Shown in pieces: positions 3,902 to 58,802 of a stretch of 64,000 nt of DNA; the first letter of the stretch is position 1, and each line of letters begins with the position of its first letter. The notes beneath the pieces are model-generated. The model made no database searches. It was not told where the DNA came from and saw only the letters and a list, made by a program, of their open reading frames with translations. Made by a program: the position numbers and the translations under genes. Location of the stretch: NCBI RefSeq assembly GCF_950295315.1, contig NC_080170.1:94534054-94598053 (forward strand). The letters are read 5' to 3'. Source of the DNA: Erinaceus europaeus. Lineage: Eukaryota; Chordata; Mammalia; Eulipotyphla; Erinaceidae.

Positions 3902-4132
3902 GAATGTCTAGTGAGTGCGATCTGGCTGCGACATCTGTCACCCCATTGATCGCCAGAGTTGATTAGGCTGATCTGGCTGGCTAGGCAGGTGTTCCCTTCC
4001 TTCCTCACCGCTCCATGTGCGTCCCTCCAGAAGCTGAGCGCTTGGTGAAAGAGGACGGCCTTCCCCGAATAGAGACGGACCGGGTATACGAGTATATGCG
4101 CTCCTCTGCTAGAACCGCCAAACAAGCTCTCT
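3902..4132 (+). pseudogene. RN7SK: 7SK snRNA pseudogene, 3'-truncated
   Basis: The segment follows 7SK RNA from its first nucleotides through GCGATCTGGCTGCGACATC, the GATCGCCAG pairing partner, and on to CCAAACAAGCTCTC. Functional 7SK is a ~330-nt Pol III RNA that holds P-TEFb inactive with HEXIM and LARP7. Here about 100 nt of the 3' end are missing, including the terminal hairpin and U-tract. An internal stretch around 4080 (the TCTTCGGTCAA part of the second stem) is deleted, and there are many substitutions. No A-tail or clear target duplication is visible. It is a dead copy; the true 7SK gene is elsewhere. Confidence 0.93.
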
Positions 4133-4422
4133 CTTAACACTTTCTTAACCTGAAAAGTATTCTCCAGATAGCAGTCTCTGGAATTTTTAATCCAGAATCA
4201 GAATCCATTAGGTAGCTTAAAATAATTTTCCAGCATACATACACCTTGATTCTTATTTCATGTTTTTGTTGGGACCGGGCATCAGGAAAACATTTAAAAC
4301 CCCACAAATGATACAGCTAATCCGAAAACTCCTTTGAGAGATAACCTGTCTAGTAATTATTCTTGGCTATAAGTAAACAAGTACAGAGTCTTATATCTGA
4401 AGAAGTCTTTAAAGAACACTTA

Positions 4423-19436: not shown

Positions 19437-20544
19437 ATTTTTTATTTAAGAAAGGATAAATTAACAAAACCATAAGGTAGGAGGGGTACAACTCCACACA
19501 ATTCCCACCACCCAGTCTCCATATCCCATCCCCTCTCCTGATAGCTTTCCCATTCTCTATCCCTCTGGGAGCATGGACCCAGGGTCATTGTGGGTTGTAG
19601 AAGGTGGAAGGTCTGGTTTCTGTAATTGCTTCCCCGCTGAACATGGGTGTTGACTGGTCGGTCCATACTCCCAGTATGCCTCTCTCTTTCCCTAGTAGGG
19701 TGGGTCTCTGGGGAAGCAGAGCTCCAGGACACATTGGTGGGGTCTTCAGTCCAAGGAAGCCTGGCCGGCATCCTGATGGCATCTGGAACCTGGTGGCTGA
19801 AAAGAGAGTTAACATACAAAGCCAAACAAATTGTTGAGCAAACATGGACCCAAATGTTGGAATAGTGGAGAGGAAGTGTTGGGGGGTATGCACTGCAAAC
19901 TCTAGTGTACTTCTGCTTTCAGGTACATATTTTGCACTAGTTTATGGATACTTGTGAACATATGCTCTGTCTCACAGAACCTGGTCTATATCTAGGTTTT
20001 GGGACTTTGTTAGAATGTCATCCACCTGGGATAGAATTAGAGTATACTATGAAAGGAAAGGTCTCACCCGAGTAATGAAGCTGAAGGGTTGTCATTCCAC
20101 ACGTGAAGTCTCTGGACACAGTCTGAGCTGAAGCGTGTTGAGGTGGCAATCATTGCGTTGATTAGGTTGCGATGGGCTGATGTAATATTATTTGATATGG
20201 ATTGGGAGAGGCATGTGGGAAAGTGGGCCCTATCCTAAGGTTCCAGGACTGGGGGAAATATAGGCCCTATAGTGGAGATGTAAGGTTCCAGCTGCCTTAG
20301 GGTTCAAAAAGTCAATCGATAGTTAATGTTATCATCACATTATTTGGTAATTGGGTTAACTTTGAAAAGTCCTTTTGTTAGGGTTTGCTGTATAGTACCT
20401 AGTATCTTATATAGCTGTGCCACTGGTTGCTTCTGATCTACTTGGTCTAGGCTTTTGAGAGAGTCCGCATATCAAATACACAGCCTATGTATTAACAAGA
20501 CTCAGTCTGTGTTTTAAAAACTTCGAGACATACAATTAATTTTC
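19437..20544 (-). mobile_element. Hedgehog L1 3'-UTR-type copy, minus
   Basis: Starts with a T-rich tail and AACAAAACCATAAGGTAGG, then the same body as 45.7 kb. The first ~430 bp are clearly shared with other copies. Bases 19880-20544 have no second copy here and may be a deeper part of the same element. ORFs on both strands (up to 127 codons) are repeats read through. Confidence 0.65.
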
Positions 20545-22674: not shown

Positions 22675-23087
22675 ACAATTTATTGTTATTAGTGATTTAA
22701 TAATGATTAACATGGTTATAAGATAAAAGGGGTATAATTCCACATAGTTCCCACCACCAGAGTTTGAGTCTCATCCCCTAGAAGCTTTCTTATTCTTTAT
22801 CCCCCCAGGAGTACGGACCAAAGATCTTTATGGGGTGCATAAGGTAGAAGGTCTGGCTTCTGTAACTGTTCCTCTGCTGGACATGAACATTGGCAGGTCG
22901 ATCCATACCCCAGCCTATTTCTATCCTTCTTTTGCGGGGTAGGGTTCTGGAGAGGTTAGATTTTGGGACACATTGGTGAGGTTGTCTGCCCAGGGAAGGA
23001 AGGATGGCCTTATGGTAGCATTGCAACTTGGTAGCTATAACACAGTAAGATATAAAGCAGGACAAATTGTTTAACAAACAGAAACCA
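22675..23087 (-). mobile_element. Hedgehog L1 3'-UTR-type copy, minus, left part
   Basis: GTTCCCACCACCAGAG, AGGTCGATCCATACCCC and TTGTCTGCCCAGGGAAG identify the family. The element is split by the SINE at 23088 and resumes at 23465-23700. Confidence 0.8.
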
Positions 23088-23450
23088 GGGGGTCGGGCAG
23101 TGGCGCAGTGGGTTAAGCGCATGTGTCGCAAAGCACAGGGACCGGCGTAGGGATCCCGGTTCGAGCCCCCGGCTCCCCACCTGCAGGGGAGTCGCTTCAC
23201 AGGCGGTGAAGCAGGTCTGCAGGTGTCTATCTTTCTCTCCCCCTCTCTGTCTTCCCCTCCTCTCTCCATTTTTCTCTGTTCTATCCAACAACCAACAACG
23301 TCAACAATGGCAATAATAACCACAACGAGGCTACAACAACAATGGCAACAAAAGGGGGAAAAATGGCCTCCAGAAGCAGTGGATTCATGGTGCAGGCACC
23401 GAGCCCAGCAATAACCCTGGAGGGAAAAATAAATAAATAAATAAATAAAC
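23088..23450 (+). mobile_element. Full-length type A SINE with 3' module, plus
   Basis: One of the cleanest copies: tRNA-like head with GTGGCGCAGTGGGTTAAGC (A-box side) and CGGTTCGAGCCCC (B-box side), CTGCAGGTGTCTATCTTTC, ACAACAACAATGGC, then CCTCCAGAAGCAGTGG to ACCCTGGAGG and an (AAAT)n tail. Near-perfect 14-bp target duplications lie at 23073-23086 and 23451-23464. The insertion site AGTGCAGGCACT used at 40 kb reads GGTGCAGGCACC here and is empty. Confidence 0.93.
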
Positions 23451-23464
23451 AAACAAACAAGAAC

Positions 23465-40014: not shown

Positions 40015-40276
40015 GGCTGGGCAGTGGGTTAAGTGCACTTGGTGCAAAGCACAAGAATCAGTGCAAGGATCCTGGTTTGAGCCCCCAGCTTCCCACCAGC
40101 AGGGGGGTTGCTTCGCAACCAGTGAAGCAGGTCTACAGGTGTCTTTCTCTCCCTCTCTCTGTCCTATCCAACAACGACAGCAAAAACAACAATGATAACA
40201 ACCACAACAACGTTAAACAACAAGGGCAACAAAAGGGAAAAACCTCCAAAAGCAGTGGATTCATAGTGCAGGCACT

Positions 40277-40472
40277 TCTTCTTCTTCTAGCGTTTGCCCT
40301 TCTTCCATAGCCAGTCAACAGGTCAGGTTGAAAGCTGTCAGGAGCTGCTTGTTGCTGGCTTTGAAAGTGACTGGGAACCATGTGGATTCAGTCAGTTAGG
40401 AAGGATCGTCAGTTTCCCCAATGAATGGGTACTCACGGGATGCACCACGAGAAGGTCGATCCAATGCATCCC
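40277..40472 (-). mobile_element. 196-bp non-autonomous retroelement with LINE-like 3' tail
   Basis: On the minus strand it starts GGGATGCATTGG directly at the target duplication and ends CTAGAAGAAGAAGAAG directly before the other copy. It is therefore a complete insertion (duplication AGTGCAGGCACT on the plus strand, 40265-40276 and 40473-40484). Its last ~50 nt (40277-40329) match the 3' end of the LINE at 57231, including GAAGAAGGGCAAACGCTAG and the (AAG)n tail. They diverge upstream. The first ~70 nt fold like an HDV-type ribozyme. There is no open frame and no Pol III box pair that I can see. Sharing only the tail with a LINE is the usual sign of a non-autonomous partner. An internally deleted LINE with authentic LINE 5' and 3' ends is equally possible. 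Confidence 0.85.
40401..40472 (-). ncRNA. Candidate HDV-like self-cleaving ribozyme
   Basis: Numbering on the minus strand from nt 1 = 40472. P1 is nt 1-7 with 30-36 (GGGATGC/GCATCCC, 7 bp). P2 is 11-16 with 65-70 (GGATCG/CGATCC, 6 bp). P3 is 17-19 with 27-29 (ACC/GGT). L3 is TTCTCGT, 7 nt, close to the HDV genomic loop UCCUCGC. P4 is 44-47 with 53-56 (CCCA/TGGG, loop TTCAT). The P4-P2 joining strand holds C61-U-G-A, matching the C-N-R-A placement of the catalytic cytosine (plus-strand 40412). This is the nested double pseudoknot of HDV-like ribozymes, which are known at the 5' ends of several non-LTR retrotransposons, where cleavage frees the exact 5' end. Weak points: P1.1 can form only one good pair (C22-G37), and the joining strand has four extra nt before C61. 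Activity is inferred. Confidence 0.72.
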
Positions 40473-40784
40473 AGTGCAGGCACTGAGCCCCAGTGATAAC
40501 CCTGGAGGAAAAGAAAGAGAAAGAAAGAAAGAGAAAGAGAGAGGGGGGGATGGAGAGAGAGAAGAGATAGATAGAGAGAAAGGTATATAAGGAAACACAT
40601 ATATTTTTACGCCCAGAAATTTGTGCATTTGAAACAAAAGTTCAGAAACAAAAGAGTCCTCATTTTTATTATATGTGAGACTCAAATTCTTTTATTTCTT
40701 TTTAACCTAGTTGATCATAATAACCTTTTCAAAATTATCTTTTTGACTTACAGGGTTTAAACTATACTTGTGTGTACCATTTTT

Positions 40785-43322: not shown

Positions 43323-43485
43323 ATACTTACTTGGCAGGGGAGATACCATGGTCACAAATGTGGTCTCCCCAGGGAAAGGCTATCCATTGCACTCCAGGTG
43401 TGCTGACCACTGTGATTTCTCCATATGTGGGAAACTGAACTGCATAATTTGTGGTAGTGGGGGACTGTGTTCATAATTTCCCCTG
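43323..43485 (+). pseudogene. RNU1: U1 snRNA retropseudogene
   Basis: All of U1 (about 164 nt) is present: the 5' splice-site recognition start ATACTTACTTGGCAGGGG, CATTGCACTCC, the Sm region ATAATTTGTGGTAG and the 3' end TTTCCCCTG. U1 RNA recognises 5' splice sites; this copy carries about 20 substitutions, including a changed base in the recognition sequence. An A-run follows within a few bases (43489-43500), suggesting L1-mediated retroposition. No proximal sequence element is recognised upstream; a SINE lies ~40 bp before it. Not expected to be transcribed as U1. Confidence 0.95.
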
Positions 43486-45699: not shown

Positions 45700-46265
45700 C
45701 TTTTTTTTTTATTTATAAAAAAAGAAACATTGACAAAACCATAGGATAAGAGGGATACAACTCCACACAATTCCTACCATCAGAATTCCTTATCCCATCC
45801 CCTTCCCTGATAGCTTTCCTATTCTTTATCCCTCTGGGAGTATGAACCCAAGGTCATTGTGGGTTGCAGAAGGTGGAAGGTATGGCTTCTGTAATTGCTT
45901 CCCCGCTGAACATGGGCATTGACATGTCGATCCATACTCCCATCCTGCCTCTCTCTTTCCCTGGTGGGGTGGAGCTCTGGGGAATCAGAGCTCCAGGACA
46001 CATTGGTGGGGTTGTCTGTCCAGGGAAGTCTAGTCAGCATCATGCTAGCATCTGGAACCTGGTGGCTGAAAAGAGAGTTAACATATAAAGCCAAACAAGT
46101 TGCTGAGTAATCATGAACCTAAAGGCTGGAATAGTGCAGATGAAGAATTGGAGGGTCTCTGTTTTGTAGATATCTAGTAGGCCTATTTTAGTTAGATTCC
46201 AAAGGGCCTGTGACTATACTAGTTTTTTTTTTCCCTGAGCCTGAAATCTGATATAGTTTTAGAGT
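45700..46265 (-). mobile_element. Hedgehog L1 3'-UTR-type copy, minus
   Basis: T-rich tail, AACCATAGGATAAGAGGG, CTCCACACAATTCC, GGTGGGGTGGAGCTCTGG, CACATTGGTGGGGTTG and the part beyond AAGAGAGTTAACATATAAAGC. Well preserved, and collinear with 19.4 and 15.5 kb. Confidence 0.85.
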
Positions 46266-56967: not shown

Positions 56968-57230
56968 AGGTGTCAGGCGATGGTGCACCAGGCTAAGTGC
57001 ACATAGTACTAAGCACAAGGACTCACACGTGGATCCCCTTTCAAGCTCCAGGCTTCCCACCTGCAAGAGTATTGCTTCATAAGTGTTGAAGCAGGGCTAT
57101 AGGTGCCTATCTTTCTCTGTCCCTCTTAACTTCTCTCTCCTCTCTCAATTTATCTCTGTCCTATCCAATTAAAGAAAATGGGATGGGAGAAAATGGCCAC
57201 CAGGAGCAGTGGAGTCTTAGTACAGACACT
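56968..57230 (+). mobile_element. Type A SINE cut off at the LINE insertion site
   Basis: GGTGTCAGGCGATGGTGCACC head, CACCTGCAAGAGTATTGC, CTATCTTTCTCTGTCC, then the module start GCCACCAGGAGCAGTGG and AGTACAGACACT, where the LINE tail begins. The rest of the module (GAGCCCC... CCTGGAGG) is absent downstream of the LINE. Confidence 0.88.
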
Positions 57231-58775
57231 TCTTCTTCTAGCGTTTGCCCTTCTTCCGTAACCAGTCAACAGCGTCAGGTTGAGCCTGATGTAAAGTTTC
57301 GAGACCTCCTTTGAATCTGGAGAGGTGGCAGTCGTTGACTATGTGGGTCATAGTCTGTCTGGAGCCGCAGGGGCAGTTCGGGTCGTCTCTGGCTCCCCAG
57401 CGATGGAACATAGCGGCGCACCGGCCATGGCCTGTTCGATAGCGATTGAGGAGGGCCCAATCATAACGTGCTAGGTCAAAGCCAGGTTGACAGGTTACAG
57501 GGGTCTGTGATGAGGTATTTGTTCTTTACCTCAGCTGATTGCCAACTCTGTTTCCAAGAGACTGGAACAGAGAAGTTCAGTGTAGGCGTAGGGGACCAGA
57601 TTGGGTGACGAGACGTCAAGGGTTGGACAGGGTGGGCGAAGATATCTGCGTAGTCGAGCGTAGACGTGGGAAATGTACTTAGATGATGCCGTATCCCGAC
57701 GAATATTTGGTGGGGCGATGTTGCTAAGAACTGGCAGCCATGGAAGCGGGGTGGAACGGATGGTTCCAGAAATTATCCTCATGGAGGAATATAATTTGGA
57801 ATCGACCAAGTGGACATGGGGGCTACGGAACCATACTGGGGCACAGTATTCTGCAGTGGAATAGCATAATGCCAGAGATGATGATCGTAGTGTGGAAGCG
57901 CTCGCGCCCCATGAGGAGCTGGCCAGTCTTGCAATGATGTTATTCCTCGCGCCCACCTTTGCTGCAGTTTTTATGAGATGTTCGTGAAATGACAGAGTGC
58001 GATCGAGAGTAACGCCAAGATAGACTGGGTGGGCTTCATGCCAGATTCTCGTATTGCCAAGCTGCACATTAAGCTCACGCGAGGCCGAGGCATGGTGTAG
58101 ATGGAAAACAGATGATACCATTTTTGCAGTGCTAGGGATTAGTCGCCATTTTTTACAGTAATCAGATATCAGAGACATATCTTTCGTGAGTGTTTCCTCG
58201 AGGATGTCGAACTTGGATGCCTGAGTTGCACAGCAGGTGTCATCGGCGTAGATGAACTTCCTTGAAGAAGTTTCTGGGAGGTCATTGATGTAAATATTAA
58301 ATAGCGTAGGAGCCAGAACAGAGCCCTGGGGGAGGCCACTTGAGACAAGTCTCCATCTGCTAGACTTGTCACCCAGATGTACCCGGAATCTTCTGTTTTG
58401 GAGAAGAAACGATATAGTGTTGGCCACCCATGGAGGCAGGCATCTTGAGATCTTGACTAGGAGACCACGGTGCCAGACCGTGTCATAGGCTGCTGTGAGA
58501 TCAACAAAGACAGCACCCATCTTTAAATTCTTCTGGAATCCATTTTCAATGTAAGTTGAGAGGGCTAGGGCTTGTTCGCAGGTAGATCTTCCTGGGCGGA
58601 AACCAGCTTGGGCGGGTGATAGGAATTTCTCTGTAAGATGAGAAATACGTGACAGAAGCAGCCTCTCAAGGAGTTTGTAACACACGGAGAGGAGAGAAAT
58701 TGGTCTATAGCTGGCGGCCAGTGTTGGGTCTTTCTTTGGTTTCAAAACTGCTATTATCTTCGCACGACGCCAAAT
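57231..58775 (-). mobile_element. Jockey/RTE-like non-LTR retrotransposon, 5'-truncated
   Basis: On the minus strand it begins within the reverse transcriptase (W-R-R-A-K-I-I-A-V-L-K-P) and ends at TAG plus (AAG)n at 57231-57240. The endonuclease and 5' end are missing. The stop codon sits directly against the tail, so there is no 3' UTR. The sequence is richer in GC and CpG than its surroundings, unlike the old L1 and L2 around it, which suggests a recent arrival. The protein resembles jockey/RTE-like elements of invertebrates and fish and differs from mammalian L1, L2 and BovB. The left junction is inside a SINE. No matching target repeat is found at 58775-58802, so the exact 5' breakpoint is uncertain (58765-58802). 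Confidence 0.88.
57238..58775 (-). pseudogene. LINE reverse transcriptase ORF with two C-terminal frameshifts
   Basis: The open frame runs from the truncation to TGA at 57531-57533. Within its 404 residues (counted from L-K-P-K-K-D at 58745): motif 1/2 SYRPISLLS (12-20), GFRPGRST (48-55), motif A FVDLTAAYD with catalytic Asp at 82, motif B GLPQGS (137-142), motif C YADD (166-169), and the thumb-side YLGVTLDRTLSFHEHL and YSTAEYCAPVW blocks. All catalytic Asp are intact. Downstream, two single-base shifts between about 57560 and 57490 move the frame. It then reads P-G-F-D-L-A-R-Y-D-W, RTGHGRCAA and a CCHC-like P-C-G-x(6)-M-T-H-I-V-N-D-C, ending K-K-G-K-R at TAG 57238-57240. The RT would copy element RNA at the cut target. 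As it stands, the copy cannot encode a complete protein. Confidence 0.88.
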
Positions 58776-58802
58776 TTTATTATTAGTTAAGAGTAGAATT
58801 TC

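Follow-up and report, generated by a model that had tools for sequence, protein, structure and literature searches.

A candidate HDV-like ribozyme at the start of a recently active hedgehog LINE and its internally deleted derivatives

A short retroelement on the minus strand of hedgehog (Erinaceus europaeus) contig NC_080170.1 begins with a well-supported candidate for an HDV-like ribozyme, and the same domain is found at the 5′ end of the recently active LINE to which the element belongs. The element was located in a window of 64,000 nt (positions 94,534,054–94,598,053 of the contig), the whole stretch of DNA analysed here. We consider it probable that it represents the 5′ end of an internally deleted derivative of an ingi-related LINE, with an HDV-like ribozyme setting the 5′ ends of the RNA. 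An earlier, sequence-only reading of this DNA had proposed that the element is, or was, processed by such a ribozyme, and we infer the same: this is the best reading of the results, supported by the coincidence of the predicted cut with the insertion boundary, the common 5′ start of most copies read, the letters of L3 and J4/2, and the presence of the domain on a copy of the parent LINE. The tie to the LINE of the window and to an ingi-related clade goes beyond the earlier reading and is the strongest support added by the present analysis.

The element, running from 40472 down to 40277, is a short non-autonomous retroelement inserted into a SINE. Its nt 1–145 can be aligned with the 5′ terminus of a LINE copy found elsewhere in the genome (L083), and its nt 142–195 match the 3′ end of the LINE in the window, with a (GAA)n tail after them. 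A direct repeat of 12 bp (AGTGCAGGCACT in both copies, plus strand) brackets the element, so that nt 1 is the first base past the duplication; the first two bases of the copy at 40265–40276 may also belong to the GAA tail. The coordinates of all features are collected in Table 1, in which, as in the text, base 40472 of the minus strand is nt 1.

Table 1. Coordinates of the retroelement, its candidate ribozyme and the parent LINE in the window
Feature	Position	Strand	Evidence
Non-autonomous retroelement, about 196–198 nt	40277..40472	−	Sequence alignments
5′ copy of 12-bp target site duplication, inside SINE	40473..40484	−	Exact direct repeat
3′ copy of target site duplication	40265..40276	−	Exact direct repeat
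HDV-like ribozyme candidate, nt 1–70	40403..40472	−	Pairing, Rfam alignment, descriptor, shuffles
P1 5′ strand GGGATGC, nt 1–7; predicted cut 5′ of base 40472	40466..40472	−	
P2 5′ strand GGATCG, nt 11–16	40457..40462	−	
P3 5′ strand ACC, nt 17–19	40454..40456	−	
L3 TTCTCGT (UUCUCGU in RNA), nt 20–26	40447..40453	−	
P3 3′ strand GGT, nt 27–29	40444..40446	−	
P1 3′ strand GCATCCC, nt 30–36	40437..40443	−	
P4 hairpin CCCA-TTCAT-TGGG, pairs nt 44–47 with 53–56	40417..40429	−	
J4/2 GAAACTGA, nt 57–64	40409..40416	−	
P2 3′ strand CGATCC, nt 65–70	40403..40408	−	
ATG at nt 92, start of the endonuclease frame in L083; vestigial in the short derivative	40379..40381	−	
Parent LINE copy, 5′-truncated, frame-broken, with reverse transcriptase (RVT_1)	57229..58778	−	

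The pairings named in the sequence-only reading (P1, P2, P3 with its L3, P4 and the C-U-G-A joining strand) are all present on the minus strand, with 7 bp in P1, 6 in P2, 3 in P3 and 4 in P4 (20 pairs in all), and from 40472 onwards the strands follow the order P1-P2-P3-P3′-P1′-P4-P2′ of the nested double pseudoknot, as that reading had described. Its observation that the predicted cut site falls on the insertion boundary was also borne out, nt 1 directly adjoining the target duplication, and so was its reservation about a poor P1.1, for which one pair at most can be drawn: C22–G37 (L3 to J1/4) is possible, and U21 stands opposite U38. J4/2 ends in C61-U62-G63-A64, adjoining P2′. C61, which is base 40412, is the cytosine of J4/2 proposed to act in catalysis, and its spacing matches that of the catalytic cytosine of HDV. 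In L3, U20 and G25 fall at the positions expected for a reverse wobble, which is described for L3 of HDV-like ribozymes in PMC3774820. A minimum-energy fold, in which pseudoknots are not representable, gave an extended P1 hairpin plus P4 with a z value of −2.31, and five of 200 shuffles folded equally well.

Our own HDV-like descriptor matched a single start in the window on both strands, at 40472. Applied to one strand of each of 36 dinucleotide-shuffled versions of the window, 2.30 Mb in total, the same descriptor found nine starts, so that about 0.5 match would be expected anywhere in a window of this size. As one match per window is not rare, the weight rests on its exact coincidence with the insertion boundary. 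When the first 90 nt of the element were subjected to mononucleotide shuffling, the fold arose at nt 1 in three of 759,292 sequences. With P1 held fixed, it arose in 623 of 389,987 (191 with P2 of at least 6 bp), and with the first 36 nt held fixed in 984 of 105,492 (344 with P2 of at least 6 bp).

The sequence-only reading had suggested examining the segment with an HDV covariance model. The Rfam model RF00094 aligned to 40405–40474 of the minus strand over the full length of the model, beginning 2 nt upstream of the boundary, with 25.1 bits and an E value of 0.092 (301 bases), half of the gathering cut-off of 50. On the LINE copy L083, the model scored 25.6 bits, likewise below the cut-off of 50. 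A blind Rfam scan of the window gave no match of the HDV model at its gathering cut-off, and RF00094 was absent from the 67 Rfam matches that the whole window gave at E≤10, so a blind scan would overlook this ribozyme candidate.

We searched the hedgehog's own genome (2.72 Gb) with the whole element. The best 40 of 102 candidate copies were scored and proved 94–100% identical to the element; 28 of these start at nt 1, and the other 12 are short by 1–9 nt. An exact 35-letter core with five free positions had 3,438 matches in the genome, against none for the reversed control, and the core is therefore present in thousands of copies. From 100 of the core places listed, all on a single contig (C1), 40 copies were fetched as a pattern sample, 30 of which start exactly at nt 1. 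That most copies might start elsewhere, which the sequence-only reading had named as evidence that would speak against a ribozyme, was accordingly not seen in either set. We aligned 45 exact starters, 28 from the best-scoring set and 17 from the pattern sample. In 31 of these 45, a target duplication with no more than one mismatch ends exactly at −1, and the same holds for 20 of the 30 pattern-sampled copies that start at nt 1; the two sets have 17 copies in common. A G at −1 was seen in one of the 45 and in three of the 30, suggesting that an additional G derived from a cap is uncommon. A T occupied −1 in 33 of the 45 aligned copies, perhaps a preference of the endonuclease. Our own covariance model (R1), run on the window plus 20 blindly placed loci of 10 kb each (200 kb), matched the element alone; the 200 kb of blindly placed loci contained two LINE matches and no ribozyme.

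Reading of the individual copies revealed that C61, the putative catalytic base, is present in 80 of 80 (presence only), and G25 in 78 of 80, having been fixed by the search pattern in 40 of them. All 20 pairs are intact in 19 of the 40 best-scoring and in 18 of the 40 pattern-sampled copies. Pairing amounted to 97.7%, compared with 97.8% when partners were shuffled among sequences and 39–50% when partners were slid. None of the 20 pairs had changed on both sides (24 distinct sequences among the 45, with a mean column identity of 99%). The compensatory changes in P1 and P2 that the sequence-only reading had proposed to look for were thus absent from the 45 aligned copies, which differ so little that covariation has no power within this genome.

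One variant recurs, in which A4 is replaced by T with T33 unchanged (GGGTTGC), giving an uncompensated U–U mismatch in P1. It was found in eight of the 40 pattern-sampled copies (L061, L068, L070, L077, L078, L123, L127 and L128) and also in two of the 28 best-scoring copies with an exact start. The concern of the sequence-only reading that copies might break P1 or P2 without compensation therefore holds in part, for A4T in P1. According to PMC3774820, P1 mismatches have been postulated as one cause of cleavage being lost in other HDV-like ribozymes unless magnesium is raised. The recurrence of A4T suggests either that the ribozyme tolerates the mismatch or that amplification is not strictly dependent on cleavage. 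The variant may serve as a natural test of the importance of P1 pairing for amplification.

The last 55 nt of the LINE at 57229–58778 were 94.5% identical to the 3′ end of the element over 55 columns. Among 858 candidates, the best-scoring 39 other LINE copies were 99% identical over ~282 nt, and the two copies in the blindly placed loci 94–95% identical. The copy L083 begins with nt 1–145 of the element, the ribozyme domain included, and has all 20 pairs intact. The domain ends 21 nt before the ATG at nt 92, and the frame opened by this ATG reaches the endonuclease domain PF03372, with a stop at codon 159 in L083. This 5′ end was found upstream of one (L083) of the 39 LINE copies examined, five of which were followed over 2 kb and 34 in a 220-nt stretch placed by the L083 spacing, so that shifted 5′ ends would be missed in the latter. 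A member of the pattern sample, L138, matches L083 over ~224 nt with its first bases altered; the LINE 5′ end is thus represented by one clear copy, L083, together with L138. The derivatives join the 5′ and 3′ parts of the LINE at several breakpoints, of which at least three types were sampled. The shared 5′ and 3′ parts, the varied breakpoints and L083 together indicate that the short elements are deletion products and that the ribozyme domain is a feature of the LINE.

Pfam analysis of the reverse transcriptase and C-terminal pieces of the LINE in the window gave RVT_1 at E≤0.001 and no further family, RNase H included; the evidence for PF03372 and RVT_1 comes from pieces of two different copies. 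Homologues of the LINE reverse transcriptase accounted for 3,150 of 8,000 scored candidates, the best at 96% and the next at 65%. No relatives were confirmed by a protein search of viral contigs, nor by a search of viral and prokaryotic contigs with an exact 20-letter ribozyme pattern. The LINE and the short element both adjoin the same SINE part at their 3′ side (GTGCCTGCACT and GTGTCTGTACT), suggestive of a preference for a common target. No matching 5′ duplication was seen by eye for the LINE, as if its 5′ flank had been rearranged.

Elsewhere in the window, full-length matches were obtained to 7SK RNA (189.9 bits, 3911–4233), as a gene or retropseudogene, and to U1 snRNA (111.7 bits, 43323–43485), as a gene or pseudogene. 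Three stop-free stretches on the minus strand (19442–19918, 22790–23464 and 45819–46118) encode similar peptides (HVQRGSNYR/HVQQRNSYR) and by eye resemble a dispersed repeat; a protein search with the second of them returned no homologue at E≤0.001.

We propose that the element would be transcribed as part of a longer host RNA or from a start lying upstream, and that its first 70 nt, common to the LINE, would fold as an HDV-like ribozyme and cut immediately before G1, C61 being the presumed catalytic base. The 5′ end of the released RNA would then be nt 1, and the start codon of the LINE would lie 21 nt past the ribozyme. The LINE protein would recognize the common 3′ end and reverse transcribe up to the cut end, and the resulting copies would have GGGATGC as their first bases, adjoining the target duplication.

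Exact starts would likewise be obtained from an internal promoter that initiates at nt 1, with transcription rather than cleavage setting the 5′ ends and the fold being an inactive relic, or active but dispensable. Pr77 of L1Tc is such a dual sequence, combining the ribozyme with promoter activity and having a CGTG motif at +25 to +28 (PMC4748587 and PMC8190864), and CGTG is present at nt 24–27 of the window element. Furthermore, the broken P1 pair of A4T in eight of 40 copies suggests that amplification may tolerate a weak ribozyme. However, this CGTG lies within L3 and P3, where it would be constrained by the ribozyme fold anyway, and few junctions have a cap-like additional G (1/45 and 3/30). 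A promoter could also coexist with a ribozyme, as PMC8190864 reports for Pr77. We therefore consider it unlikely that a promoter takes the place of the ribozyme at these 5′ ends.

A chance 5′ hairpin with an accidental pseudoknot, having no ribozyme ancestry, would be consistent with the ~0.5 descriptor match expected per window, the Rfam score under the cut-off and the lack of covariation among copies. The fold nevertheless lies exactly at nt 1, as in three of 759,292 shuffles, its L3 and J4/2 letters are as expected, and the element probably has its relatives in a clade whose ribozymes have been tested; chance thus appears a very improbable origin. Nor does the element read well as a SINE of other origin that captured a LINE tail and is unrelated to the LINE 5′ end. 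Its short length, multiple copies and LINE-like 3′ end would fit, but nt 1–145 can be aligned with the 5′ terminus of L083, the same 5′ and 3′ parts recur in the sampled derivatives with breakpoints in several places, and the idea is contradicted by L083 and by the ~224-nt match of L138 to it, which makes such an origin barely credible.

With an HDV-like ribozyme as the preferred reading, we see an even prospect that a recently active mammalian LINE and its thousands of short derivatives obtain their RNA 5′ ends by a ribozyme inherited from an Ingi/Vingi ancestor, and that sense copies in host genes are genuine self-cutting sites. Insects and trypanosomes already provide examples of LINEs with an HDV-like ribozyme at the 5′ end (PMC3774820 and PMC4035085). 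A recently amplified mammalian case would bring ribozyme-made 5′ ends together with thousands of near-identical natural copies, and self-cutting sites would be spread through a mammalian transcriptome, where the effects of the copies on host transcripts would be measurable. Such a case would, in addition, suggest an L1Tc/ingi ribozyme older than the split from its animal relatives.

Compared by description, the LINE family is most likely the hedgehog Vingi or Vingi-1. Kojima, Kapitonov and Jurka, in the title of their 2011 paper, present Vingi as an Ingi-related clade in hedgehogs, and reportedly described non-autonomous derivatives and the lack of RNase H. A Vingi LINE is defined by an endonuclease and a reverse transcriptase without RNase H, and Vingi-1 with Vingi-1N is a young family with several internal-deletion derivatives. 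The family in the window is similarly a young LINE with internal-deletion derivatives, as judged from the 99% identity among the best 39 copies and the breakpoint types (at least three). According to PMC3183009, Vingi-1N3_EE has 311 copies, the largest hedgehog count under 1% divergence. In a library of open-licence papers, we found none linking Vingi with ribozymes and none on HDV-like ribozymes in hedgehog or Erinaceus; the main text of PMC4035085 mentions neither Vingi nor hedgehog.

The window element has the same strand order, P3/L3 and J4/2 cytosine position as the HDV ribozyme (RF00094), and differs from HDV proper in its 25.1 bits against a cut-off of 50 and in a P1.1 of one pair at most. 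In insects, R2 has a 5′-end HDV-like ribozyme that is kept by internal-deletion derivatives (PMC3414825 and PMC3774820), and R2 ribozymes keep the U and G positions of L3, as does the window element. R2 is site-specific in 28S genes, whereas the hedgehog family is inserted at many sites, two of them in the same SINE part. The L1TcRz/Pr77 of L1Tc, NARTc, RIME and SIDER, which we compared by description, is likewise an HDV-like fold in the first ~77 nt, with the cut at nt 1 that is predicted for the window element, and the CGTG motif of L1Tc lies at almost the same position as in the window element. The sequence-only reading had counted L1Tc among the elements with a 5′ ribozyme, in agreement with PMC4035085, in which in vitro cleavage was seen for several Pr77 ribozymes of the L1Tc/ingi clade, although not for all, from LINEs and short derivatives. 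In contrast with trypanosomatid L1Tc, the host here is a mammal and no RNase H family was found in the LINE pieces tested. In the L1Tc/ingi clade, as in the hedgehog family, the domain is common to the autonomous LINE and its short derivatives.
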